A DNA stretch of 64,000 nucleotides. Source: Psychrobacter sp. UBA3480 (GTDB lineage Bacteria > Pseudomonadota > Gammaproteobacteria > Pseudomonadales > Moraxellaceae). Positions 8,993 through 22,900 of this stretch are shown here, one piece after another. The notes beneath the pieces were generated by a model. It worked only from the letters and a program-made list of their open reading frames with translations. It had not been told where the DNA came from and did no database searches. Numbering within the stretch: the stretch's first letter is position 1; the number at the start of each line of letters is the position of its first letter. Both the position numbers and the translations under genes were made by a program. The stretch is from contig NZ_DFQV01000017.1 of NCBI RefSeq assembly GCF_002377945.1, positions 113,596 through 177,595 of the forward strand. The letters run 5' to 3'.

Positions 8993-9019
8993 ATGACTTA
9001 CAATACTAGGATTACCCCT

Positions 9020-10582
9020 ATGAACGACATCAAACAACTAACCCTACATCCTCGCCAGCTTAGCTTTGAAATGCTACGTGATATCTACGAGCAGCCTGTC
9101 ATATTGACACTACCCGAAAGTGATTATGAGGCGATAGATGCCTCGCACGAAGATGTACGTACCATCATTGCACGAGACAAAAGCGCATACGGTATCAACA
9201 CCGGTTTTGGCCTGTTAGCAAAGACACGTATCAGTGATGATCAGCTTGAGCTACTTCAGCGTAACCTGATCGTTTCTCACTCAGTGGGTACTGGTGACGC
9301 GCTACCAGATGGCGTGGTACGACTGATTATGGTGATGAAAGTTGCCAGTCTGGCGCAAGGTGTCTCTGGTGTACGCCGCGAGGTAGTTGATAGCTTACTT
9401 GGCTTAATCAATAATCAAATCACACCCAATATCCCAGCCAAAGGTTCAGTTGGTGCATCTGGTGACCTAGCACCATTATCACATATGACGCTTGCGATGA
9501 TGGGTGAAGGTGATGTGTTTGTCGCTGGCAAAAAAGTACTTGCTGCTGATGCTCTAGCGCAGCATGGACTTAAGCCAATCACATTGGCAGCCAAAGAAGG
9601 CCTTGCACTAATCAACGGTACGCAAGTATCAACTGCACTGGCATTACGTGGTTATTTTTTAGCGCGTGATTTGCTTGAGACCGCCACTATTGTTGGCTCG
9701 ATGTCGATTGATGCTGCAAAAGGATCCGATTCACCATTTGATGCGCGTATTCATGAAGTACGTGGCCATCATGGTCAAATCGAAATCGCCAAAGCACATC
9801 GTCAACTAATCAAAGGCAGTGCTATCCGTGCCTCACATGACGGCGAGCAAGACGATAGAGTGCAAGACCCTTACTGCCTACGCTGTCAGCCACAGGTCAT
9901 GGGTGCCTGTCTTGATATCATCAACCAAGCAGGGAAAACTCTGCTAATAGAATCCAATGCCGTAACTGACAATCCACTTATCTTTAATAACGAAGATGGC
10001 CCTGTCGCTATCTCAGGTGGTAACTTCCATGCTGAGCCTGTGGCTTTTGCCGCGGATATTTTAGCCTTAGCAATCGCTGAGATTGGCTCGATGTCTGAGC
10101 GCCGTGTCGCTTTGCTAATTGATGCCACTTTATCAGGTGGTCTGCCGCCATTCTTGGTCGATAATGCTGGGGTCAACTCAGGCTTTATGATTGCGCATGT
10201 GACGGCCGCAGCGCTGGCCTCAGAAAACAAATCTATCGCCCATCCAGGCAGTGTCGATAGTATCCCGACCTCTGCTAATCAAGAAGACCATGTGTCTATG
10301 GCCACCTATTGCGCACGACGCCTATACGAGATGGCACAAAACACTGCCACTATCATCGGTATTGAGTTATTGGCTGCTGGTCAAGGTATCGACTTCCATC
10401 GTGGACTAGATACGTCAGAGCCGCTGACTGTGGCACATCAGAAACTACGTGAGAAAGTGACTTTCTATGATAAAGATCGCTACCTCGCCCCAGATATCGA
10501 AGCAGCCAAGCAGCTGATATTAGACGGTACGCTTGCTGAACATTGGCAGTCACTACGCAGCGATTGGTACGAGTCTAAATAA
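9020..10582 (+). CDS. hutH: Histidine ammonia-lyase
   Basis: HutH removes ammonia from L-histidine to give urocanate, the first step of the pathway. The MIO cofactor-forming triad Ala-Ser-Gly is at residues 146-148 within [14 protein letters not shown]. Other family blocks are YGINTGFG (57-64), [20 protein letters not shown] and [21 protein letters not shown] start at the ATG at 9020, since AGGA is 8 bases upstream; the ATG at 8993 begins at the very edge of repeat copy C and would add nine residues. The resulting 520 residues fit the family. Confidence 0.97.
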
Positions 10583-10605
10583 AGATTAATGGGCGGAGAG
10601 CAGTG

Positions 10606-11664
10606 ATGACAATAACGAGAACAACAGCACCGAATACCACTCACATTAGCCATACACCTGCTGATATGACCCAGTGGATAGGACGTACAGAGCCATTTGA
10701 GACTGCGCGTGCCCGCTATTGGTATCAGCTTGCTCAGCCTTACGAGGATCAAAATATTGGGCTAATTGGCTTTGCCTGTGATCAAGGCGTCAGACGCAAT
10801 CAAGGCCGCATAGGTGCTAGAGCTGCTCCACCATTGATTCGTCGAGCTTTGGCTACGCTGCCAGTCATCGCTGAATTGCAACAACGTTTTGATGGTCAAT
10901 TATCAACCTTATTGGGTGATGCTGGTGACATTCATTGTGATGATAATGATGGCCTTGCCGAGAGCACCCTTGAGCAAGCTCAGATTAAATATGCTGATGC
11001 AGTGAGCACTATTGTCAAGCAAGGTGGTCTACCCATCGGACTTGGCGGTGGTCATGCCATCGCTTATGGTAGTTTTTTGGGATTATGGCAGGCCTTAGAA
11101 AATACTAGCGAAACAACTATCAGCACAAACACAGCGCCTACTATTGGGATTATTAATTTTGATGCTCATCTTGATATTCGTCAGTCGGATGTAGCGACTT
11201 CTGGGACACCATTTCGCCAGATTGCCGAGCATCTTGACGCACATGGTCAACCCTTTCATTATTGCTGTATTGGCGTCAGTCGCTTTTCTAATACGGCAGC
11301 TCTCTTTGATCGTGCTGAGCAATTGGGCGTACAGGTCATTAGTGATGAAGACTGTCACTATCAGCCTTGGGATACACTTGCTGAGCGGGTCAAAAGCTTT
11401 GTAGATCAGGTCGATATTGTGTATCTAACCATCGATATGGACTGCTTACCATCTAGTGTCGTCCCAGGTGTGAGCGCACCTGCCGCCTTTGGCATTGAGC
11501 TGGGTTTCGTTGAGCGTATGGTCAAAACCATCATGGCATCAGGCAAAGTAAAAATGGCAGACCTTGCTGAGATTAACCCTACCTTTGATATTGACAGTCG
11601 TAGCTGCAAAGTCGCTGCTCGCTTACTGGCCACTATTGTAGAGCAGCACTTACTTAGCGCCTAG
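10606..11664 (+). CDS. hutG: Formimidoylglutamase
   Basis: A ureohydrolase-fold enzyme that hydrolyses N-formimidoyl-L-glutamate to glutamate and formamide, the last step of the direct route. Manganese-binding motifs are visible: GLGGGHAIAYG, INFDAHLDIR and TIDMDCLPSSVVPGVSAP. The start at 10606 gives 352 residues; GGAG at 10595-10598 is 7 bases away, and a GTG one codon earlier is possible. No hutF is present, which agrees with a one-step formimidoylglutamase route. It lies 23 bases after hutH. Confidence 0.95.
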   Translation: MTITRTTAPNTTHISHTPADMTQWIGRTEPFETARARYWYQLAQPYEDQNIGLIGFACDQGVRRNQGRIGARAAPPLIRRALATLPVIAELQQRFDGQLSTLLGDAGDIHCDDNDGLAESTLEQAQIKYADAVSTIVKQGGLPIGLGGGHAIAYGSFLGLWQALENTSETTISTNTAPTIGIINFDAHLDIRQSDVATSGTPFRQIAEHLDAHGQPFHYCCIGVSRFSNTAALFDRAEQLGVQVISDEDCHYQPWDTLAERVKSFVDQVDIVYLTIDMDCLPSSVVPGVSAPAAFGIELGFVERMVKTIMASGKVKMADLAEINPTFDIDSRSCKVAARLLATIVEQHLLSA

Positions 11665-11726
11665 GTCTTACAAACAAAGATCTTAAGACAAAAGATCACT
11701 CGCCTCCCAATAATTAGGAGCCTATT

Positions 11727-13040
11727 ATGAATGAATCAGAAAATTTTAAAGAGCAGACGCTCGACGAATCTACTATGACATCGTTTGATCAACTCATTAT
11801 CAATGCCAACATTGCGACGTTTTCAGCGAACTATGGTTTCGATATTTACGATAATTCAGATGCTAATAATATCCCATACGGTCAGTTAGAGAACGCGGCT
11901 ATTGGTATCAAAAGTGGCAAAATCGCTTGGATTGGGGCACATGACCAAATCGATACTCATCTGCCTAAATATCAAGATAGCCAAATCACAGACGTGGATG
12001 GTAAATGGATAACCCCAGGGCTTATTGACTGTCATACGCATATCGTCTATGGCGGCAACCGTAGCAATGAGTTTGAAGCACGATTACAAGGCGCTAGTTA
12101 TCAAGACATTGCCGCACAAGGCGGCGGTATTGTCGCGACGGTCAGTGCCACTCGCGCTGCCAGTATTGAAGCGCTATTTGCACAAAGTGAAAAACGCTTA
12201 ATCGCACTTATGAAAGAAGGCGTTACCAGTATCGAAATTAAATCTGGTTATGGCTTGAACTTAGACACTGAACGCAAAATGCTTACGGTCGCTCGCCAGC
12301 TTGGTGAAAAGTACGACATTCATGTAAGTACCACGTATTTGGCGGCTCATGCCTTGCCACCTGAGTATAAAAATCGTGCAGATGACTATATTGAGCAAGT
12401 CTGCGAATGGCTGCCGATTCTGCATTCAGAGGACTTGGTCGATGCGGTCGATGGATTTTGTGAAAACATCGCATTTAGTACAGAGCAAATCAGGCGAGTC
12501 TTTGAGGTCGCACGATCTTTAGATTTACCAGTCAAACTGCACTCTGAGCAGCTGTCCGATATAGGTGGTAGTGCCTTAGTTGCTGAATATAAAGGACTGT
12601 CGAGCGATCATCTAGAGCACTTGTCAGAAGAAGACATCAAGAAAATGGCGGCTAGCAATACCGTTGCCGTGATATTGCCAGGGGCATTTTATACGCTACG
12701 TGACACCAAGTTGCCACCGATTGAGGCATTACGTAAACATCAAGTCCCTATGGCTATTTCAACCGACTGTAATCCTGGCACCTCACCGTTGACGTCGCTG
12801 TTATTGGCGATGAACATGGGCTGTACACTGTTTTACCTGACACCCGAAGAAGTACTGGCAGGCTCGACTGTTTATGCAGCACAGGCTTTAGGACTATCTA
12901 ATAAGGGTAGAATAGAAGTGGGCTGTGATGCTGATTTAGCGCTATGGGATATCGCTCGTCCCGCTGACTTGGCCTATCAGATGGGCTTAAACCCTATCCA
13001 AGGTATCATGGTTCAAGGACAATGGCGCGACACAATGTAA
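11727..13040 (+). CDS. hutI: Imidazolonepropionase
   Basis: HutI opens the ring of 4-imidazolone-5-propionate to give N-formimidoylglutamate. It is an amidohydrolase-fold metalloenzyme with the metal motif [10 protein letters not shown] (near residue 100), [32 protein letters not shown] and [20 protein letters not shown] lies shortly before the ATG at 11727, and a second ATG at 11775 ([16 protein letters not shown]) gives a start nearer to most family members, so the first 16 residues are doubtful. It is the last gene of the hut operon and is followed by a terminator. Confidence 0.95.
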
Positions 13041-13066
13041 TCAACCTACCTTCACTTATTATCATT

Positions 13067-13103
13067 AAAAAAGCCCCAGTCATTTAATGATTGGGGCTTT
13101 TTT
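13067..13103 (+). terminator. Terminator of the hut operon
   Basis: A 16-base stem (13067-13082 with 13088-13103, one G-U pair) has a 5-base loop and a T6 run. It lies 27 bases after the hutI stop. Confidence 0.9.
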
Positions 13104-13284
13104 AATAACAATGTTGCAAATTTTATGAAATTGAAGAAAAAAACCTTAATAACCTTACTTTAAATAGGGATTTACTATATCAATATTATTAGTAAGGATT
13201 TATAATACCCTTTTTTAAACAGGGTTATTTTTGGCTAACTATAGTTCATAAATAAAAATTAACAAACAGTATAGAGAAAGCGAT

Positions 13285-13647
13285 ATGCGTACAGATTCAT
13301 TTCAGCAGATATTGGAAGACTTAAACAGTTCATCAGCAGATGTTGAAGCATCTGCGCTAATCTCTAACGATGGTCTTATGATTGCTTCAGCTCTACCAAC
13401 CGGCGTGGATGAAGATCGCGTGGGTGCTATGTCAGCAGCATTATTATCATTGGGTGATCGTGCAGGACGCGAGTTGGCACGCGGTAGTATTGATCGCATT
13501 ATGATTCAAGGCGAGAAAGGCTACGTCATCATGACCTCATCAGGCGATGAAGCGGTACTCACCATCATGGCAAAACCCAATGCCAAGCTTGGCTTAATAT
13601 TCCTAGATATTAAGCGCGCCTCAGAAGCATTGGCAAAGCTTATTTGA
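13285..13647 (+). CDS. Roadblock/LC7 domain protein
   Basis: A 120-residue single-domain protein with the Roadblock/LC7 fold pattern: ASALISNDGLMIASALP, an amphipathic helix (DRVGAMSAALLSLGDRAGREL), a beta strand pair (IDRIMIQGEKGYVIMTSSG) and a final helix. Bacterial Roadblock proteins such as MglB usually regulate small GTPases or form dimeric scaffolds. No MglA-type GTPase gene is in the window. It leads a five-gene plus-strand cluster with a PAS protein, a PhnD-like protein and two unknowns. A long AT-rich leader (13104-13284) precedes it. The family call is good; the partner is unknown. Confidence 0.88.
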   Translation: MRTDSFQQILEDLNSSSADVEASALISNDGLMIASALPTGVDEDRVGAMSAALLSLGDRAGRELARGSIDRIMIQGEKGYVIMTSSGDEAVLTIMAKPNAKLGLIFLDIKRASEALAKLI

Positions 13648-13691
13648 TTGGCGACTGCTTATCGAATTTATTAGCTTTTAATTACTATAAA

Positions 13692-13798
13692 TATAGTCGG
13701 TTCAATATAGTTTGAATACAAGGAAGCCGAGTGAGAGTACTACAAGTAGTAGGCTAAGCAAGGCTGACACCGTATCCAATTTATAGAGGATTGACTAC
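13692..13798 (+). repeat. Dispersed palindromic repeat, copy B
   Basis: Opens TATAGTCGGTTCAATATAGT and closes AGAGGATTGACTA, with the shared interior AAGGAAGCCGAGTGAGAGTA and GGCTAAGCAAGGCTGACACC. It fills most of the gap between the Roadblock and PAS genes and would appear in a joint transcript. Confidence 0.8.
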
Positions 13799-13823
13799 AT
13801 AACGATCAACGAAGGAGATGACC

Positions 13824-14318
13824 ATGGGTTCTCCAATCCCTGATGCACACAAACCCGATATGCCTGCTGAGCAAATCACGATGACTTATCATGATGGCAC
13901 ATCACGGACTGTCTATGATACTGGTATAGAGCGCCCCTACCCAGACGGTAAGCTGATTGTCTCGCGTACCAATCTCGACGGTATCATCACTCACGTCAAC
14001 GACGCCTTTGTCGAAATCAGTGGCTATCATATAGATGAATTGATTGGCCAACAGCACTATATTTTGCGTCATCCTGATATGCCAAAAGCCGCCTATAAAG
14101 ACTTATGGAGTACTGCTGAGTCTGGACAAAAATGGCATGGCTATGTCAAAAACTTATGCAAAGACGGCAGTCATTATTGGGTCTATGCCACTGTGGTGCC
14201 TAACGTGCGTCGCGGCGAAATCGTCGGCTACACCTCGGTACGACGCAAACCATCACGCAGCAAAATTGAAGCGGCGATGACTCAATATGCCCAAATGAAA
14301 CAAGATGAGGAAGGCTAA
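13824..14318 (+). CDS. Stand-alone Aer-type PAS domain protein
   Basis: A 164-residue cytoplasmic protein made of one PAS domain (about residues 35-145) and short tails. The blocks ITHVNDAFVEISGYHIDELI, RHPDMPKAAYKDLW, WHGYVKNLCKDGSHYWVYA and GYTSVRRKPSRSKIEAA closely follow the FAD-binding PAS domain of the aerotaxis receptor Aer, so a flavin redox sensor is plausible. Unlike Aer it has no membrane segment, HAMP or signalling domain, so its output must go through a partner. Start chosen at 13824, since AAGGAG (13812-13817) is 6 bases away; the ATG at 13818 abuts it. The next gene starts 3 bases after its stop. Confidence 0.88.
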   Translation: MGSPIPDAHKPDMPAEQITMTYHDGTSRTVYDTGIERPYPDGKLIVSRTNLDGIITHVNDAFVEISGYHIDELIGQQHYILRHPDMPKAAYKDLWSTAESGQKWHGYVKNLCKDGSHYWVYATVVPNVRRGEIVGYTSVRRKPSRSKIEAAMTQYAQMKQDEEG

Positions 14319-14321
14319 GTC

Positions 14322-15071
14322 ATGACGACACACAATATGTTAATCGCCCCTGATTTCTCGCCTGATCGCTTTGCAGGCTGGCACATGTTCAACACCTTGA
14401 TTCAAAAACGTGCCAACTTAAACATGCATCTCAATATCCCTGCCTCTCACGCTGAGCAAGAGCAGGTCATTGATGCTGGTGACATTCAAATCATTTATGC
14501 CAACCCTTTTGATGCAGCCACTCTCATTCGAGAGCAAGGCTATCGAGCCATTGCCCGACCTATCGGCAAATCTGATGAGATGGTCATTGCAGCCGCAGCC
14601 AATAGCGCTATTAGCCGTTTGGAAGACATTCAAGTAGGGGCTACTGTCGCGATGGCTGACAACCGAGATGTCAAACTGATTGGTTTGCGATTGCTAGAAG
14701 CCGTCGATATAGAAGCCTCTGATCTCAACTGGGATGTGACCGAGACCTATCAAGCGGCTGCCCGCAAAGTCATCAAAGGTGAAGCCCAAGTCGCGTTCTT
14801 TTTGGCAGAGATATTTCATAGCTTCTCACGCTTGACCAAGACTCAGCTGTCAGTACTTATCGAAAGTGACTTGGCTGATATCAGTCATGTGTTACTAGTC
14901 AAAGAAGACTTTCCCGATGCACAAATCTTTCTAGAAGCCATCCTCAATTTGCACAACGATGACGATGGTAAAGAAGCATTGGCTGAGCTTGGCATGCCTC
15001 AAGGATTTGAGCCAATGAGCGAAGAAGATGCCGAATTTATGATTGATTTGATGCAGACATTATTGGATTAG
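14322..15071 (+). CDS. PhnD-like substrate-binding-fold protein without signal peptide
   Basis: A 249-residue protein of the PhnD/SsuA/transferrin-type periplasmic-binding fold: IIYANPFDAATLIREQGYRAIARP, then VGATVAMADNRDVKLIGLRLLEAV, and a C-terminal lobe with QVAFFLAEIFHSFSRL. PhnD proteins bind phosphonate or phosphite for ABC importers, but this one has no signal sequence (it begins MTTHNMLIAPDFSPDRFAGW) and no transporter genes nearby. It is therefore probably a cytoplasmic sensor or a scaffold that binds a ligand for the adjacent PAS and Roadblock proteins. It starts 3 bases after the PAS gene, showing tight coupling. Confidence 0.82.
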   Translation: MTTHNMLIAPDFSPDRFAGWHMFNTLIQKRANLNMHLNIPASHAEQEQVIDAGDIQIIYANPFDAATLIREQGYRAIARPIGKSDEMVIAAAANSAISRLEDIQVGATVAMADNRDVKLIGLRLLEAVDIEASDLNWDVTETYQAAARKVIKGEAQVAFFLAEIFHSFSRLTKTQLSVLIESDLADISHVLLVKEDFPDAQIFLEAILNLHNDDDGKEALAELGMPQGFEPMSEEDAEFMIDLMQTLLD

Positions 15072-15195
15072 TCGCTCAATCATTGTATTGATATCAAGCG
15101 CTATTTCTCTGGATTACATCATCGCTTGTCGTATGACATCATTACCACTGAAGCAAGCACCGTCGTAATAATAGCGATGATAGAAGGGTATTATT

Positions 15196-15819
15196 ATGTC
15201 TGATTCAGACCTTATTAAAGAAAATGAAAGAGTCGCACACCGAGTATTTCGGTTTTACTCTCGTAAAGTATTTTTGGCACCCAACAACCGTCACTTTCAT
15301 GAGCAGCGCATCAATGCAGCTTTGCTATTGACGGAGAAAGAGCCGTTACAAGGTGCTGTAGCGGACTTTTTTTATGGGTGCTGGTTTGATATCCCATATG
15401 ATGTAAACAATCTATTTACTCGTATCAAAGATCGTTTGTATCCTCATGTCCAGCAAGGCTTTCGCGAGTGCATTGATAAAAAAAGATACATTCAGCGCAA
15501 TAGTATGTTGGCCACTCGTTGGAGTGTGCTGATATCTCCTTCTCTCAATGAGCAAAAGCAACGGCTGCGTATCAGCAGCGATGATGCCCGAGAAATCGCT
15601 AAAGACATCACCACTGAGCTGATGCAAGCGCGTGAGGACAAAGACTGGGGTACGATTGAGCAAATCGAAAATGAGTTTTTTGCCCATTGTACTGCGCGCA
15701 ATGATCGCCTTGCGTTTTCGCTGGTATGGTTTCGCTTGGGTAGAAGTGACTGGCAGTTCGATGCGCGCTGGGACAACTGCCAACAACATCTCGATCAAAC
15801 TATAGTCAAATCCATATAA
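15196..15819 (+). CDS. Uncharacterised protein in the Roadblock/PAS cluster
   Basis: I do not recognise this 207-residue protein. It is soluble, largely helical and rich in charged residues and aromatics, with segments such as AHRVFRFYSRKVF, ADFFYGCWFDIPYD and SLVWFRLGRSDWQFDARW. It has no signal peptide or membrane segment. AGAAGGGTATTATT precedes the ATG. Its last five codons (IVKSI) and stop lie inside a reversed copy of the dispersed repeat beginning at 15801, so the C-terminus probably differs from that of relatives. Position suggests it works with the preceding PhnD-like and PAS proteins. Confidence 0.75.
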   Translation: MSDSDLIKENERVAHRVFRFYSRKVFLAPNNRHFHEQRINAALLLTEKEPLQGAVADFFYGCWFDIPYDVNNLFTRIKDRLYPHVQQGFRECIDKKRYIQRNSMLATRWSVLISPSLNEQKQRLRISSDDAREIAKDITTELMQAREDKDWGTIEQIENEFFAHCTARNDRLAFSLVWFRLGRSDWQFDARWDNCQQHLDQTIVKSI

Positions 15820-15905
15820 ATCCGCTACGTCGTCATCCTCGCTAAGCATACTAATGTATAACTTACGCTCGGTTTCCTTGTATCAAAATTATTTGAACTC
15901 AACGA
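15801..15905 (-). repeat. Dispersed palindromic repeat, copy D (reverse, overlaps CDS end)
   Basis: The reverse complement of 15801-15905 matches the other copies: GATACAAGGAAACCGAGCGT, TAAGTTATACATTAGTATGC, TTAGCGAGGATGACGACGTA. Interior identity with copy A is very high. The first 19 bases are also the 3' end of the preceding coding sequence, including its stop codon. Confidence 0.85.
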
Positions 15906-15947
15906 TCTGAAAGCCTAATTTGTCACTTATCAATCACTTTTATCATA

Positions 15948-16574
15948 ATGGTAGTTACTATGTCCTCTTACTTAAATGCTGATAAAACCTATCTTACCCT
16001 GACGCCAGCTGGTATTTTTGAGGCGTTTTCACAGAACGAACCGACTGATGAGCAGCTAGCATTACAGAATTTGCTATCTTATGATCAGACACTGCTCGCC
16101 GCTGACTGGCTTCAGCGCTATTCTGAACAATGGCTACAGAGCTTTATCGAAAAAGGTTGGATTGAAAAGCTGTCACTGTTTTTACCAGCGCCTAACTTGC
16201 CATTAGACCAGTTTTTGCCTTATGTCGTGGCGAGCTTATCTGGTAAACGCCGAGCCGCGATCGGCTCTGATGAAGGATTTTGTTTAGCGCGAGTTGGCTA
16301 TAGTCAAGAAGAAGCGGACATGCTCAGTGTCGCCGCCGCTGATTTTTCAGGCTTTATGCTCCGCCAAAAGCAACGTGGGTGGGCAGTAGAGAGTCAGGCA
16401 ATCTCGTTTTTTCAACAGGTCGACCTACTCATTCCTGAGACCAGCTTTGTGTTTTTATGGATAGATAATGCAGGCTACGTTCTCATCATCGATGGCGAAC
16501 CTCTGACCAACAGTCGTGCCTTTGTCGAGCTAGTATGGGCCCTTAAAACCTCTGGATTGAGATTTCTTAACTAA
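15948..16574 (+). CDS. Uncharacterised protein with a divergent Roadblock-like C-terminal region
   Basis: A 208-residue soluble protein. The first 95 residues are unrecognised. From about residue 100 the pattern RRAAIGSDEGFCLARVG, a helix (EADMLSVAAADFSGFMLRQK), then VFLWIDNAGYVLIIDGEPL and a final helix follow the strand-helix-strand-helix order of the Roadblock protein at 13285. I therefore infer a divergent Roadblock/LC7 fold. The start may be the ATG at 15948 or at 15960 (MSSYLNADKTY); neither has a clear ribosome site. It is the last gene of the cluster and is followed by a strong hairpin at 16656-16703. Confidence 0.7.
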   Translation: MVVTMSSYLNADKTYLTLTPAGIFEAFSQNEPTDEQLALQNLLSYDQTLLAADWLQRYSEQWLQSFIEKGWIEKLSLFLPAPNLPLDQFLPYVVASLSGKRRAAIGSDEGFCLARVGYSQEEADMLSVAAADFSGFMLRQKQRGWAVESQAISFFQQVDLLIPETSFVFLWIDNAGYVLIIDGEPLTNSRAFVELVWALKTSGLRFLN

Positions 16575-16993
16575 GGAGGTTTCTTAACTGATTTAATTCG
16601 CTTAATTCATTCCACTGTATCGTCTGATTTGTTGCTTAAGCTCGATCTTTTACGCGAGAATAAACAGTGCGCTTAGCTAAAGTTAAGCGTACTGTTTATT
16701 CTCATATAAGTATTTTTCGTATCATTCTTACCTATATCACTCTCTAGTATCGGCTAACTCTACGCAGCAATAACAATACTCTCAGAATTAACAATAACTT
16801 GTCAGAATTTAGGTCATACTCTTCTCATACACTTAAGTATTTTCTTGCCACAACTTAAGTTGCCACAAATCTCTAACCATTCAAACATCTATACAGCTTC
16901 CAATATTTTCATCATCTTTTCCAATGTTGTACCCTACCGAAATCGGCAACCCCTGCCAAACCTTGCATTCTTGCTTATTTTTTAGGACAGTTT
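16575..16993. other. Intergenic region with a 20-base-pair hairpin
   Basis: No ORF is supported in these 419 bases. The arms 16656-16675 and 16684-16703 pair over 20 positions (one G-U) around an 8-base loop. No clean T-run follows, so it may be a weak terminator or an mRNA-stabilising hairpin at the end of the Roadblock cluster. The rest is AT-rich sequence leading to the methyltransferase gene. Confidence 0.6.
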
Positions 16994-17674
16994 ATGACTT
17001 CGCTGACCACTGTGCGCGTGCGTTATCAAACGATTGAAATTGGCAATACCGACATTCATATTTGCACACTACGTGACAATCAACAATTTAGTGACCCTGA
17101 TGACGAAGCGTTAAATCTGGGTATCTGCTCCGCTTCTTGGCCGATGTTTGGGGTGATATGGCCTTCAAGCTTGGTGCTGGCCAATCATATGCTCGATTAC
17201 GATATTACAGGCAAACGTATTTTGGAAGTTGGCTGCGGTATGGCGCTCTCTAGTCTGCTACTGAATCATAGACATGCGGACATCACAGCGACTGACTATC
17301 ATCCAACGGTTGAGTATTTCCTTGATAGGAATACCACGCTGAATAATAATAAAGAGATTAATTTTGAGCGTTTAGATTGGGCAGAAGACAATAGCCATCT
17401 TGGCAAGTTTGATATGATTATCGGCAGTGACTTGCTCTATGAAGACCAACACATTGATATATTAGCTGAGTTCATTGACCGTCATGCTATGCCGACTTGC
17501 GAGGTCATCGTGGTCGATCCTGGTCGCGGTCGCAAAAACAAACTAACCAATAAGATGACTGAATTTGGCTTTAGTAGTAAGCATGTAAAACCTGAAAATA
17601 CGACTTATCTAGACTTGCCGTTTAAAGGGCATATTCTGACGTTTTCGCGAGATAATAGTAGCCAAACAGAGTAA
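16994..17674 (+). CDS. Class I SAM-dependent methyltransferase (METTL21/Nnt1-like)
   Basis: A 226-residue methyltransferase. Motif I is ILEVGCGMALSSLLL (about residues 76-90), followed by DITATDYHPTVEYFLDRN (motif II) and FDMIIGSDLLYEDQHIDIL, the D-x-Y-type post-motif typical of the methyltransferase family 16 group (lysine methyltransferase-like). The entry FGVIWPSSLVLANHML resembles the conserved W-x-A/S-x-x-L segment of those proteins. The substrate is unknown, possibly a protein side chain. It is a single gene, converging with the GNAT gene 37 bases downstream. Confidence 0.85.
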   Translation: MTSLTTVRVRYQTIEIGNTDIHICTLRDNQQFSDPDDEALNLGICSASWPMFGVIWPSSLVLANHMLDYDITGKRILEVGCGMALSSLLLNHRHADITATDYHPTVEYFLDRNTTLNNNKEINFERLDWAEDNSHLGKFDMIIGSDLLYEDQHIDILAEFIDRHAMPTCEVIVVDPGRGRKNKLTNKMTEFGFSSKHVKPENTTYLDLPFKGHILTFSRDNSSQTE

Positions 17675-17711
17675 AAGACAACCATCAATGCAATTAAGTG
17701 AGCACAGTATC

Positions 17712-18281
17712 CTACCATTGCTGCCGAGTAATTTTGTACAGCACATGCTCAGCGAGCCGATGATTAGACTCAAGCATAGGGTGAAAAAAATCCTCCTGTG
17801 TATTGGTCATACCAAGGCGCTCCATAACCAATTGTGAGCGCTTATTGATAACGGCAGTAAAGGCAACGACTTCATCTAGTCCTAATGTATCGAATGCAAA
17901 ATTCAATGAAGCCCTTGCCGCCTCTGTCGCATACCCTAATCCCCAATAATCATTGTGCAATCGCCAAGCAATCTCGACAGCAGGAGAGAACGGCATATCG
18001 GCATGCGCATGATTTAACCCAACCATACCGATAAAAGCATCTGTTTCTTTTAGACTCACTGCCCAAAAACCCCACCCATTATCATCAATCAGCGACTGGC
18101 ATTTCTTGGCGATAGTATTACTCATGGAAGTAGTTAATAGCTTAGGAAAGTATTCCATTACTTCAGGGTCAGCATTAATCTCAGCGAATGGCGCAAAGTC
18201 GCTCGCTTGCCACTGTCGTAGGTACAGTCGTTCGGTTTCTATCGTATTTATAATTTTATTCTCTCGCATTTCGTTGTTCAA
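17712..18281 (-). CDS. GNAT-family N-acetyltransferase (RimJ/RimL type)
   Basis: A 189-residue acetyltransferase of the Acetyltransf_3 group. It starts with ETERLYLRQWQASDFAPFAEI, has FIGMVGLNHAHADMPFSPAVEIAWRL as core strands, and the acetyl-CoA loop region YWGLGYATEAARASLNFAF, followed by NKRSQLVMERLGM. Such enzymes acetylate protein N-termini or small amines; the substrate is not evident. It lies 36 bases after the MocA-like gene on the same strand and may be cotranscribed. Codons 1-13 are probably dispensable. Confidence 0.85.
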   Translation of the reverse strand: MNNEMRENKIINTIETERLYLRQWQASDFAPFAEINADPEVMEYFPKLLTTSMSNTIAKKCQSLIDDNGWGFWAVSLKETDAFIGMVGLNHAHADMPFSPAVEIAWRLHNDYWGLGYATEAARASLNFAFDTLGLDEVVAFTAVINKRSQLVMERLGMTNTQEDFFHPMLESNHRLAEHVLYKITRQQW

Positions 18282-18317
18282 AATGAATACTGTTCAAAAC
18301 CAATTAAATTAATCGGG

Positions 18318-19040
18318 CTAGCTATTAAGCCAGCCTTGTTGTTTGGCAAATACTAGGTGCTCAGGTGTATCAATATCGTAGCTAAGTTGGTCATTATCGA
18401 CCTCACCTATTTGATCAGCGGGCAATCCTCTAATGAGGTGACGAAGCCCTTTATCTCCTATCAATTCTGACTGCCACTGTCTCAGCAGTTTATAGTTAAT
18501 TGCTAAAGGCAGACCTATGATATCAGATACCGTTTCATCTCGATTTTGATGTTTCGCTAAATCTTGCCAACTGTGATAGCGACTGGCCACTACCGTCTGC
18601 TTGCCCGCTAGCAAAGCGGTTAGATGTAGCTTATCTAACAATACTTGATCTATTCCCATGATTAGCACTCGATCGATTGAAGTCGATTCAAAAGCAACAA
18701 TTGTCTCAATACCTAAACTCAAACTATACGCCATACCAGTATCAGCTTGTGAGTTCACCACTATCTGAACCGTTGGATATTGATTGGCCAACGCTGTAAT
18801 CGCACTAGCAATCAAACGATGGTTATCAGGAATGACAACGGCGATGGCTTGCGGATTGGTCGTTATTGCCAATCGATTCATATAAGTAATCAATGGCTCG
18901 CCATTCTTAACGAGTAGCTGCTTAGGTTGACCGAGACGCTGACTGAGGCCGCTTGCTAAGATAATGACCGCATGGTTTTGGCTCTGCTGTTCAGTACTCT
19001 CTGTATGCTCAGCACCTTCTGTAAATGCACGCTTACTCAT
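18318..19040 (-). CDS. MocA-like molybdenum cofactor nucleotidyltransferase
   Basis: A 240-residue NTP-transferase of the MobA/MocA type. The nucleotide-binding start VIILASGLSQRLGQPKQLLV (about residues 25-44) and the metal-site region RVLIMGIDQVLLDKLHL are visible. MocA makes the cytosine-dinucleotide form of molybdopterin used by xanthine-oxidase-family enzymes, which fits the PaoABC-like genes upstream. The family G-x-x-P-x-x-x-P phosphate loop reads SRYHSWQDLAKHQN here, so it is divergent. The start codon overlaps the xdhC stop (ATGA), implying translational coupling. The first 20 residues are a variable, Glu-rich tail. Confidence 0.82.
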   Translation of the reverse strand: MSKRAFTEGAEHTESTEQQSQNHAVIILASGLSQRLGQPKQLLVKNGEPLITYMNRLAITTNPQAIAVVIPDNHRLIASAITALANQYPTVQIVVNSQADTGMAYSLSLGIETIVAFESTSIDRVLIMGIDQVLLDKLHLTALLAGKQTVVASRYHSWQDLAKHQNRDETVSDIIGLPLAINYKLLRQWQSELIGDKGLRHLIRGLPADQIGEVDNDQLSYDIDTPEHLVFAKQQGWLNS

Positions 19041-20350
19041 ACGCCACTCTGGACAGTATTGGCATCCGTATCACTACTCACCGCTGAGATATTTGAGAAA
19101 CTACTGTGTGAGCCACTTATTGAGGCAGTTTGATTGTGCATGACCGTATTTATTTCTGCCATGATGCCAAGCGCGAGTGCCTCAGGGCCGTCTCCGCCCA
19201 GCTTATAACCAATCGGATAATGCAATTTATGAATACCAGCTTCTAACATAGTAGGATTGCTAAGGTTTATGCTAATCTCATTAATTAAGCGTTCGGTACG
19301 ATAGCGCGGCCCTAACTGTCCTAAGTATTTATAATTGTCTGGATGCTTGAGTAGTATTGCTAGGCGAGCACGATCTTGACTCAAGCTGTGTGACATCAAA
19401 GCAACTGCTGCGTTACTACTAAGCTTAAGCAAAGTCTCACTGTCGTCTAAAGATAGCGACATCACAACGTCTGCTTGAGGAAACCGCATACGCGTCGCAT
19501 ATTGCGCGCGGCTATCTATAACTGTCACATGCCAATCTTGTAGCTTGGCCATGGTCACCAGTGGCATCACATCATTACCTGCGCCGCAAATCAATAGACG
19601 CACTTGTGGTTGCAAATGTTGCACAAGCCACTCTGTATTTACGTCGTCATTTTCCACCATCACATATTCGGCGTTTTTATCAGATAGCTTATATTGTGCT
19701 AACTCTTCTACAGTATTGGCAAGTATGCTTGAAAGAGCTGTTTTCCCTTGTGCAAAAACGCTTCCCAACCTGCGATATTCATCTAAATTAATACGCATTC
19801 CAGTTTGCAAATTATCACTGTTTTGCGATATAGAATCTTGATGCTGATAGTCGTCAGCACGAATCAAAGTCGCTACAGTAATCGGCTGCTGAGTATGTCG
19901 AACATTACGGATTGTCTCTAGCAATGGCGTTGCTGTCGTTAGTCGCTCAAATAATACATGCACTTGCCCATTACAGCCCAATCCAAAATTTAGCTCATCA
20001 AAGTCCGCGTCATCTAAGTCGCTATCTGGCTCATCATATATATCAGACTCAGTTTGCTTCACACCTGCTTGCGCTTGGCCATCGTCAGCATATTTAATGT
20101 CATCACCCGTCTGATAAACTTGCACATTGGCACCGTTACGAGTAAGCCAAAAGGCACGTTTGATAATGTGCGGCTCCAAGCAACCCCCACTAATCATCCC
20201 AACTGAGCGACCATCCTCACAGATAAGCATCATGGCGCCAGCACGGCGATACGCTGAGCCTTCAGTACGTACGACCGTTGCCAATACAGCGTCAATACCT
20301 TGTTGCTTAGCTTTGATTGCCAGATTAAGAATGTCAGCGACCTGATTCAT
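19037..20350 (-). CDS. XdhC-family molybdoenzyme maturation factor
   Basis: XdhC/PaoD proteins bind molybdenum cofactor, help its sulfuration and insert it into xanthine-oxidase-family enzymes. The N-terminal XdhC domain reads AVLATVVRTEGSAYRRAGAM and GMISGGCLEPHI. The Rossmann-type C-terminal domain has RLLICGAGNDVMPLVTMA and LGPRYRTERLINEI, ending with PIGYKLGGDGPEALALGIMA. At 437 residues it is longer than E. coli PaoD. The excess is an Asp/Glu-rich insert (about residues 104-124) and two variable linkers. It is separated from paoC by a terminator hairpin, so it probably has its own promoter, and it overlaps mocA. Confidence 0.9.
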   Translation of the reverse strand: MNQVADILNLAIKAKQQGIDAVLATVVRTEGSAYRRAGAMMLICEDGRSVGMISGGCLEPHIIKRAFWLTRNGANVQVYQTGDDIKYADDGQAQAGVKQTESDIYDEPDSDLDDADFDELNFGLGCNGQVHVLFERLTTATPLLETIRNVRHTQQPITVATLIRADDYQHQDSISQNSDNLQTGMRINLDEYRRLGSVFAQGKTALSSILANTVEELAQYKLSDKNAEYVMVENDDVNTEWLVQHLQPQVRLLICGAGNDVMPLVTMAKLQDWHVTVIDSRAQYATRMRFPQADVVMSLSLDDSETLLKLSSNAAVALMSHSLSQDRARLAILLKHPDNYKYLGQLGPRYRTERLINEISINLSNPTMLEAGIHKLHYPIGYKLGGDGPEALALGIMAEINTVMHNQTASISGSHSSFSNISAVSSDTDANTVQSGV

Positions 20351-20412
20351 AACGCCTCTTATTTGGTAGTTATTTTCTTGATAATGACGAAATATACTGC
20401 TGATTGAGTTAT

Positions 20413-20436
20413 AAAAACCCGCTCATTAAGCGGGTT
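20413..20436 (-). terminator. Terminator after the paoABC-like genes
   Basis: Stem AACCCGCT/AGCGGGTT (20416-20423 with 20429-20436) has a 5-base loop and, read on the minus strand, a T-run. It lies 26 bases beyond the paoC stop and before xdhC. Confidence 0.8.
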
Positions 20437-20461
20437 CCTGTCGTACATATGGCTTAAAAAA

Positions 20462-22900
20462 TTACTCTGGCATCTCGTAAAGCAGCTTATCAAGCGTAAT
20501 CGGAAAATCATAAACGCGTACGCCGACGGCATTGTAAACAGCGTTAGCAATTGCAGCGGCAGCACCAGCAATAGCAGTCTCACCAATACCTTTGATATGC
20601 ATTGGGTTGGTATAAGGATCATCCTCTTCGACCAATATCACATCTAACTGCGGTACGTCGGCATTGACTGGCACATGATACTCAGCGAGGTCATGGTTAC
20701 ACAGGCGACCATCACGTTTATCATGGATGACCTCTTCCATTAACGCTGAACCAATACCAAATACCATACCGCCATAGCATTGCGAAGTCGCTGTTTTATG
20801 GTTAAGAATACGACCTGCGGCAAATGCGCCCGTCATACGTTTCACTCGAATCTCACCCGTCACCTTATGCACGGCTACTTCAGCAAAGTTCACACCAAAA
20901 GAGGACTGACGATACTTCTTACCATTTTTACCTGGCTTTATCTGACCTTTGGCACTGACTTTTTGCTCCTCATAGCCTGCGATCACGTCAGCAAGCGCAT
21001 ATGATTCTGTATTGTCAAAATCATATTTTTCTGATGCTGTCTGTTCTTCTAATACATTCTCTGAAAATGAGACTCCTGTGGTTTCAGATATTTTATCAAT
21101 CGTGCTATCAGCAAACGCTTGACCATTCTCTTTGGCTGTCTCTACCGCTGTCAAATCGTGCTTGCCTACTTGCTTAATTTGACCATTATCTAACTGAATC
21201 GTATCAGGATATAGGCCGACTTTTTCTGCTAGCATTTCACGCAGCTGCTCACAAGCGAGGTAGACACCACTACCTGCACTCGCAGCGCCCCAACTACCAC
21301 CTGAACCTGATGCAGGTGGTAAGGCACTATCACCTAATTTCATCTCGATATGGTCAATGGGCAACCCTAATAAATCTGCAGCTACCTGAGAAAAAACAGT
21401 ATAAGACCCTGTACCAATATCTGTCATATCTGTCTCAATAACCGCTTTGACACCGAGCGCTTTTGACTTATCGATTTGCAAAGTTGCACGCGCTTCAGAA
21501 GACTGTAACTGATTACCACGTGCGGCTGCAGCCATGCCCGTGCCTATCCACCAGTCGCCTTCTAATTGACTGGCAGGCTTTGTGTTGCGCTGACTCCAAC
21601 CAAACTGCTCAGCACCTTGCTCCATACAGGCAATTAGCTGGCGCGTCGAAAATGGAATGTCCTTACTAGGGTCTTTTTCGGGTTCATTACGGCGACGTAG
21701 CTCTATAGGATCAAGGTCCAATTGCGCAGCCAATTCATCCATTGCACACTCAACAGCAATCATACCGACCGCTTCACCAGGTGCACGCATCGAACCTGAC
21801 AAGACTTGGTTCATGTCAACCATTTCATAGTTTACACGGCGGTTTTTACCACTGTATAGATAGTGCGTAGACAAAGCAGTTGGCTCAAAGAATGCCTCGT
21901 CTGGCAAATTACTAGAAATAGTATCGTGAATTAACGTATCGATAACGCCATTTTTATCACAGCCAATTGCAATGCGCTGACGAGTGTTCGAGCGTCTGAC
22001 CGTTGCTTCCATCACCTGTGGACGCGTCATGGTAATCAATACTGGACGACCAAGATCTTTTGACGCAATAGCAGCGGCAATAGATTCGGGGGCAATACCA
22101 AGCTTGCTACCAAACCCACCACCGACATAGTGTGCAATTAATTGAACTTGATCTTTGTTTAAGTTTAGCGCATCCATGACTTGTTGCTTACAAGACGCAA
22201 GCATTTGATTAGCCGTATAAAGAACGAGTTTCTCACCTTCCCAATGTGCCAATGTCGCATGTGGCTCCATCGCCGAGCTGTTTTGACTTGGCGTATGATA
22301 GAAACGATCAAGCGTCACCTCAGCATCAGCCAATCCTTGCTCAGGATCGCCTTGGACATAATTTTTGTCAGAGCCTTTTTTCTCATCAACTTCATGGGCG
22401 TTAGACAACTCTTTAGTAAAATTTAATGCTGCTTGGTCAGTCTCATCTTTATAAGTGACTTTAAGCGCATTTGCCCCTTCTGTTGCTGCTTCAAAGGTTT
22501 CAGCGATGACCACCGCAATAGGCTGACCATGATAAAAAATCTCAGTCGCTCCCTGCTTTGGCGCTTTTTTCAATCCGCCTTGCTGAGAATTACGCAAAAA
22601 GTGCTTGGGATCCGTCACGACCTTGATAATATTAGGAATGCCGTCTAAAGAACTGCTATCGATATTTTCGACTTGTCCTTTGGCAATGGTCGCACCGACC
22701 AAGACACCGTACGCTTTATTATCCAAATGAATTTCGGCACTGTAAGGCGCTTGACCACTAACCTTCAGCGAGCCGTCAACACGGTTAATTGGCTTACCGA
22801 CCAGTTTGCTCGCTGTTGTGCTAAATAAAGACTCAACAGGCTCATCCATAGTCATTTTTTTGGTCGGTTCTGACTGAGTGATTGATTCAAATAATGACAT
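20462..22900 (-). CDS. Aldehyde/xanthine dehydrogenase-family molybdopterin subunit (PaoC-like)
   Basis: The large catalytic subunit of a molybdenum hydroxylase, 812 residues. It opens the Mo domain with GKPINRVDGSLKVSGQAPYSAEI, has the substrate-channel blocks MEPHATLAHWEG and YVGGGFGSKLG, MRAPGEAVGMIAVECAMDELA, and the catalytic glutamate in KGIGETAIAGAAAAIANAVY near the end. E. coli PaoC oxidises aromatic and aliphatic aldehydes to acids; the same is likely here but xanthine-like substrates are not excluded. It is about 80 residues longer than PaoC, mostly an acidic insert at about 595-670. It starts 2 bases after paoB. Confidence 0.88.
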   Translation of the reverse strand: MSLFESITQSEPTKKMTMDEPVESLFSTTASKLVGKPINRVDGSLKVSGQAPYSAEIHLDNKAYGVLVGATIAKGQVENIDSSSLDGIPNIIKVVTDPKHFLRNSQQGGLKKAPKQGATEIFYHGQPIAVVIAETFEAATEGANALKVTYKDETDQAALNFTKELSNAHEVDEKKGSDKNYVQGDPEQGLADAEVTLDRFYHTPSQNSSAMEPHATLAHWEGEKLVLYTANQMLASCKQQVMDALNLNKDQVQLIAHYVGGGFGSKLGIAPESIAAAIASKDLGRPVLITMTRPQVMEATVRRSNTRQRIAIGCDKNGVIDTLIHDTISSNLPDEAFFEPTALSTHYLYSGKNRRVNYEMVDMNQVLSGSMRAPGEAVGMIAVECAMDELAAQLDLDPIELRRRNEPEKDPSKDIPFSTRQLIACMEQGAEQFGWSQRNTKPASQLEGDWWIGTGMAAAARGNQLQSSEARATLQIDKSKALGVKAVIETDMTDIGTGSYTVFSQVAADLLGLPIDHIEMKLGDSALPPASGSGGSWGAASAGSGVYLACEQLREMLAEKVGLYPDTIQLDNGQIKQVGKHDLTAVETAKENGQAFADSTIDKISETTGVSFSENVLEEQTASEKYDFDNTESYALADVIAGYEEQKVSAKGQIKPGKNGKKYRQSSFGVNFAEVAVHKVTGEIRVKRMTGAFAAGRILNHKTATSQCYGGMVFGIGSALMEEVIHDKRDGRLCNHDLAEYHVPVNADVPQLDVILVEEDDPYTNPMHIKGIGETAIAGAAAAIANAVYNAVGVRVYDFPITLDKLLYEMPE

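Follow-up and report, generated by a model that had tools for sequence, protein, structure and literature searches.

Within a 64,000-nucleotide stretch of the genome of Psychrobacter sp. UBA3480 (contig NZ_DFQV01000017.1, positions 113,596 to 177,595; hereafter the window), a cold-adapted bacterium, five open reading frames (ORFs) lie on the same (+) strand at 13285–16574 and encode a Roadblock/LC7 protein (RB1), a freestanding PAS domain, a PhnD-like protein and two further proteins, U4 and U5. From sequence comparison with its relatives, this cluster is very probably the descendant of a Group 3 Mgl operon that has lost its GTPase, and the best explanation as a whole, to which we assign a probability of roughly 0.6, is that this GTPase-less descendant works as a Roadblock sensing hub. 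The points with direct support are the homology of the five genes to the longer operon, the missing GTPase and accompanying X protein, the gene order, the selection on the genes, the flavin-pocket residues of the PAS domain and the predicted Roadblock fold of U5. Roadblock proteins of bacteria are usually investigated in their role as regulators of MglA-type GTPases, and a clade in which two of them stay together with two sensors under purifying selection after GTPase loss would allow scaffold and GTPase functions to be told apart within a small, soluble system.

The five-gene set is a real, conserved module. An initial annotation of the window had read five genes on this strand and proposed them as a candidate sensing module with sensor-like and scaffold-like parts; all five ORFs exist, and their membership of one conserved module is supported by gene order, by purifying selection and by a PhnD type confined, in the class-level sample, to genomes with RB1. 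The genes are not scattered in relatives, as 53 of the 56 Psychrobacter loci found with U5 share the order and strand of RB1-PAS-PhnD-U4-U5, an arrangement that exceeds chance, and the spacing of only 3 bases remarked on between the PAS and PhnD genes is found both in the window and in 53/53 loci with the full order. All five genes are under purifying selection in Psychrobacter, with median pairwise ratios of nonsynonymous to synonymous substitution rates (dN/dS) of 0.009 for RB1, 0.049 for PAS, 0.046 for PhnD, 0.048 for U4 and 0.033 for U5, which are rough values (median dS 0.9–1.2) drawn only from pairs with dS of 0.2–1.5 (904, 877, 672, 338 and 749 of 1378, respectively). In a sample of 219 Moraxellaceae genomes, RB1 is present in 59 of the 76 from Psychrobacter, one of these copies, that of G943, being decayed with three internal stops.

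That copy, together with the loss of X and the GTPase, could suggest that the cluster is a decaying Group 3 Mgl remnant without remaining function, as could two of the three loci that depart from the common order: one lacks the first three genes and holds only U4 and U5 (L078), and in another U4 is read as two short ORFs (L084), while the third lies at a contig edge (L033). However, the low median dN/dS of every gene and the intact order in nearly all loci argue against decay, which we consider very improbable.

Longer relatives and the loss of X and the GTPase

In its longer relatives, the cluster includes two genes that the window does not have. In a genome from another family of the order (G052), the genes for PhnD, PAS, RB1 and U5 precede one for a 175-aa Ras-like GTPase. 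When regions sampled across the order and the class were labelled with profiles, a recurrent operon emerged, U4-X-GTPase-U5-RB1, which is the commonest arrangement elsewhere in the class and occurs with or without PAS-PhnD, the pair often lying behind it. Among 40 class-level regions, the GTPase was found in 33, X in 36, U5 in 34, U4 in 29 and PAS and PhnD together in 14; these regions come from 38 genomes, were chosen by score out of 56 listed places in 47 genomes, and omit eight genomes and weaker second copies, with several stopping at contig ends. In Moraxellaceae the blocks are permuted to RB1-PAS-PhnD-U4-X-GTPase-U5. Psychrobacter pygoscelis (G897; L236) carries this full version, with X and the GTPase between U4 and U5, as they also are in L141, L143, L238–L241 and L244. 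X is a protein with a variable linker and variable length, and five X proteins scanned against Pfam gave no receiver or winged helix-turn-helix match. The relatives' GTPase has a DAR G5 motif, in which D162 and R164 are invariant in 24 sequences and the middle residue is mostly A, with G or P in some rows.

Since these relatives carry the GTPase between U4 and U5, its absence from the window is a derived state, and given the full version in P. pygoscelis, the simplest account is that the other Psychrobacter lost X and the GTPase from this site. Searches by tblastn with six X and GTPase pairs against the 53 loci and the window returned 0 matches at E<=1. X has an orthologue in only one of the 58 Psychrobacter genomes with an intact RB1, namely G897, while all eight non-Psychrobacter controls match; marginal matches in two other Psychrobacter genomes (4.6e-5 and 1.2e-4) were excluded from this count. 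The GTPase is also missing from operons that retain RB1 in other lineages. In f37, outside Moraxellaceae, 8/8 regions have no GTPase between X and U5 and keep RB1, with 7/8 also keeping PAS and PhnD, and the same absence occurs in G566 and in f147 (2/2). RB1 shows no sign of relaxation after GTPase loss, as the mean RB1/U5 distance ratio is 0.20 in Psychrobacter and 0.24 in f37 without the GTPase versus 0.28 and 0.43 in sets with it, these ratios coming from sets of unequal depth, without correction of the distances and with L084, L143 and L169 dropped for their cut or split ORFs. The strict conservation of the sensor and scaffold parts suggests that they may work without a GTP-driven switch.

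The longer relatives also contain several variants. At L188:1596-3089 and L194:5033-6622, a protein kinase domain (PF00069) is joined to the N-terminus of the operon GTPase, the X protein at L133:8089-9927 has a linker with a long run of LEAER-type repeats, and a single protein at L203:5968-7572 combines a Roadblock domain with an AAA-type ATPase domain. A variant Roadblock/GTPase locus occurs in L144, L145, L204 and L205, where L144 and L145 share a protein of ∼446–448 aa that reads as an ABC-type ATPase and has relatives in the other two.

The five proteins of the cluster

The family identities given initially to the Roadblock, PAS and PhnD-like proteins were recovered by profile search (table), and, as the annotation had stated, no GTPase, kinase or transporter is encoded here, the five proteins matching no GTPase, kinase or transporter-channel family in Pfam.

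Features of the five-gene cluster in the window (positions are those of the window)
Feature	Position	Strand	Description	Evidence or remark
RB1	13285..13647	+	Roadblock/LC7 (MglB-like), 120 aa	PF03259 (Robl_LC7) 2.4e-18; most conserved module member
PAS	13818..14318	+	freestanding Aer-type PAS domain, probably FAD-binding, 166 aa	PAS_3 4.2e-17
PhnD-like	14322..15071	+	predicted leaderless ligand-binding protein, 249 aa	PF12974 (Phosphonate-bd) 9.2e-35, from residue 7
U4	15196..15819	+	predicted all-helical protein, 207 aa	homologous to first gene of longer operon
U5	15948..16574	+	predicted second Roadblock protein (residues ∼83–208), 208 aa	predicted fold and profile
Empty site	15820..15947	+	position of X and Ras-like GTPase in longer relatives	

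RB1 is 53–66% identical to 18 of 22 aligned relatives from other genera. Its named relatives include Moraxella, Burkholderiales and Ottowia. The annotation had left U4 and U5 as unrecognised, which holds for U4 only. On the basis of its predicted fold and family profile, U5 is a second Roadblock protein: its AlphaFold2 model gives Roadblock fold matches by Foldseek and VIA, and its family profile matches CvnB5 at 7.7e-5. The window copy itself matches no Pfam family over the cut-off, three relatives match PF03259 below the cut-off (E 0.0018–0.064), and an HHalign alignment of U5 with RB1 gave no significant match. The N-terminal region of U5 (∼15–75) resembles a winged helix in its order of helices and strands. 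U4 likewise has no Pfam family over the cut-off, though one relative matches TPR_19 weakly, at 0.011 and below the cut-off; its AlphaFold2 model consists entirely of helices (predicted local distance difference test score 77, predicted template modelling score 0.50) and has no fold match at E<=0.001. It is the U4 profile that links the window protein to the corresponding gene of the longer operons.

The best sequence match of the PAS protein in the PDB is the aerotaxis receptor 8dik (5.3e-37), and its alignment with E. coli Aer extends over the whole domain. The flavin contacts of Aer are, in the accessible text of PMC9668731, H53, R57, W70, N85 and R115, which correspond, counted along the 8dik alignment, to H80, R84, W97, N112 and R142 of the window protein. 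Across 16 module PAS sequences, R84, W97, N112 and R142 are invariant and H80 is kept in at least 90%, and the window PAS probably binds flavin adenine dinucleotide (FAD). The two proteins thus have the PAS fold and flavin-pocket residues in common, whereas the window domain stands alone, without the methyl-accepting chemotaxis protein (MCP) part of the receptor described in that text.

The PhnD-like protein shares the PF12974 family with the PhnD and PtxB phosphonate or phosphite binding proteins. Taken alone, it matched no PDB chain at E<=1, while a profile of 16 module PhnD sequences matches PtxB at 2.2e-7 and also ArrX and PhnD structures. Unlike the PhnD proteins of ABC transporters, it has no leader that can be seen by eye, and no transporter gene was recognised among the ORFs at 9000–22000, which were judged by reading, with Pfam searches for six proteins. 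In an operon without a GTPase, another, second PhnD-like protein (PF12974) is encoded between U5 and RB1, at L168:7984-8718.

Between the genes, a dispersed repeat of ∼105 bp lies at 13695–13800, in the RB1-PAS gap, with 17 matches in its own genome, and an inverted stretch related to it lies at 15855–15892, in the U4-U5 gap, an arrangement that may be relevant to the way in which X and the GTPase disappeared. Two hairpins flank the cluster, one at 13058–13112, 3′ of hutI, with arms of 27 nt, the other at 16656–16703, 3′ of U5, with arms of 23 nt.

Sensors beside RB1 and the question of a GTPase in trans

In a possible mechanism for the cluster, RB1 and U5 would form a Roadblock platform, on which the PAS protein would report redox or energy state through its FAD and the PhnD-like protein would report a small ligand of the cytosol, perhaps an oxyanion, with RB1 as the target of both. 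In the ancestor, such a platform would have tuned the small GTPase and the X protein, while in Psychrobacter the sensor-Roadblock part would act on another target without a GTPase of its own, perhaps via U4 or the N-terminal region of U5. We hold the chances of this redox- and ligand-sensing mechanism to be about even, and those that the cluster is independent of any GTPase to be equally balanced.

The place next to RB1 is not reserved for one kind of sensor. A freestanding sensor adjoins RB1 in 24 of the 40 class-level loci; PAS and PhnD account for 14 of these, and loci without the pair often have another freestanding sensor there. A protoglobin is found in six loci (one also with PAS-PhnD), CZB in two, FIST in two and an MCP in one, the names resting on Pfam for the MCP and for one protein each of the protoglobin, CZB and FIST kinds, and on BLAST for the rest. 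Tentatively, and with somewhat less than even odds, Group 3 Roadblock pairs could be a plug-in hub in which RB1 takes interchangeable sensors (FAD-binding PAS with cytosolic PhnD, protoglobin, zinc-binding CZB, FIST or MCP) and signals without an MglA-type GTPase in several lineages, including Psychrobacter, with the Roadblock proteins as the indispensable part. The sensor slot offers a concrete entry point to what Group 3 Mgl systems sense.

PAS and PhnD could instead be passengers that occupy the locus as a sensor pair of their own and make no contact with the Roadblock proteins. This would fit the way they come as a unit, as PhnD alone is found in none of the 40 regions and the one PAS-profile match found alone is read by Pfam as an MCP, and it would also fit the many loci that lack the pair. 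Of the 369 class genomes, though, 20 have module-type PhnD, and each of these is among the 47 with RB1 (1.8e-20, hypergeometric, with phylogeny ignored), so that 0/369 have it without RB1, and other freestanding sensors occupy the same place beside RB1. We therefore regard passengers as improbable.

Several findings count against the sensing hub as we have described it. PAS and PhnD are absent from 26/40 class-level loci. The co-occurrence of PhnD with RB1 restates the operon in 16 of the 20 genomes, because the gene adjoins RB1 there; the remaining four (G446, G536, G591 and G698) have it on a different contig, where its scores are weaker and its frame is longer, and these copies may be PhnD proteins of the ordinary kind. 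Outside the PAS-PhnD junction, the intergenic gaps of the cluster are 124–170 bp, which leaves a single transcript only putative, and 17/76 Psychrobacter genomes lack RB1 altogether, in addition to the decayed copy. Of the 58 RB1-intact Psychrobacter genomes, 27, among them that of the window, encode a related GTPase elsewhere, and the switch could therefore act in trans. The searches behind this count have their own bounds, as the GTPase profile A1 was scored on at most 15 candidates of each genome, and PF03029, tried on four controls, matches G897, G022 and G230 and misses G001, which A1 finds.

Accordingly, the Roadblock pair might still regulate a small GTPase encoded at a second MglAB-like two-gene locus, the operon having lost only its own copy. 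In six Psychrobacter regions (L150, L151, L152, L158, L237 and L245) the GTPase elsewhere does adjoin a short Roadblock-like gene. Profile A1 finds a GTPase in 30/76 Psychrobacter genomes and in 28 of the 58 with an intact RB1, the one beyond those 27 being the operon copy of G897; the A1 and RB1 counts were joined as the same 219-genome draw, as equal numbers and handles indicate. In the remaining 30/58, however, neither A1 nor PF03029 finds such a GTPase anywhere (18 of the 30 being genomes without a listed A1 match), and RB1 is still conserved. Likewise, A1 finds none in six of the 13 f37 genomes, the other seven having the GTPase elsewhere, and none in G566, G521 and G736. Regulation in trans is for these reasons unlikely, though less so than a passenger role for the sensors, and we retain the GTPase-less sensing hub as the preferred reading. 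The second GTPase of the window's own genome lies at a contig end, beside a Roadblock-like gene (L158; G000:C12:19500-27091).

Comparison with known systems

The closest known relatives are the Group 3 MglA systems of beta- and gamma-proteobacteria, which in the accessible text of Wuichet & Sogaard-Andersen 2014 (PMC4316618) comprise one or two MglB homologues, an MglA homologue whose G5 motif, DAR, is unusual, and a protein in which a variable linker connects a receiver-like N-terminus to a winged-helix-like C-terminus. MglB-like Roadblock genes in a conserved neighbourhood and, in the relatives, a GTPase with the DAR G5 motif are common to both, and X resembles the published variable-linker protein in place, length variation and description. 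The window also has two MglB homologues in RB1 (PF03259) and U5 (fold and profile). In contrast, no MglA GTPase lies between U4 and U5 in the window or the 53 loci, and X is absent from the window and without an orthologue in 57/58 Psychrobacter genomes, while PAS and PhnD genes are present. Because two defining parts are lacking, we do not class the cluster as a Group 3 system.

The suggestion in the initial annotation that the module is undescribed therefore stands only in part, as its core is a remnant of this published system. PMC4316618 also lists 328/749 MglB homologues as orphans and mentions conservons from which mglA has been lost, and the loss of a GTPase beside a Roadblock gene is therefore not new in itself. 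The words 'PAS' and 'phosphonate' have zero occurrences in its main text as available, and among the matches listed no publication was found that describes Group 3 Mgl genes together with the PAS/PhnD pair or with an interchangeable sensor slot, which does not imply their absence from print. The interest of the cluster rests on the retention of the sensors and both Roadblock proteins after GTPase loss, and on the interchangeable slot.

Two other systems offer partial likenesses. The Snodgrassella mgl locus has, in the available text of PMC11112851, one mglA with three mglB genes, one of them an orphan, and a reported effect on motility. At L178, T2SSE and T2SSF genes (type II/IV secretion-pilus type) follow the operon, a single anecdotal link to type IV pili that fits this effect. 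The actinobacterial conservons CvnABCD, as presented in the accessible parts of PMC4316618 and PMC13343842, have a histidine kinase, CvnA, and a GTPase, CvnD, neither of which is encoded by the window cluster in the Pfam scan of its five proteins; they nevertheless share the association of a small Roadblock protein with a sensor and, in the longer relatives, a Ras-like GTPase, and it is their CvnB5 that the U5 profile matches.

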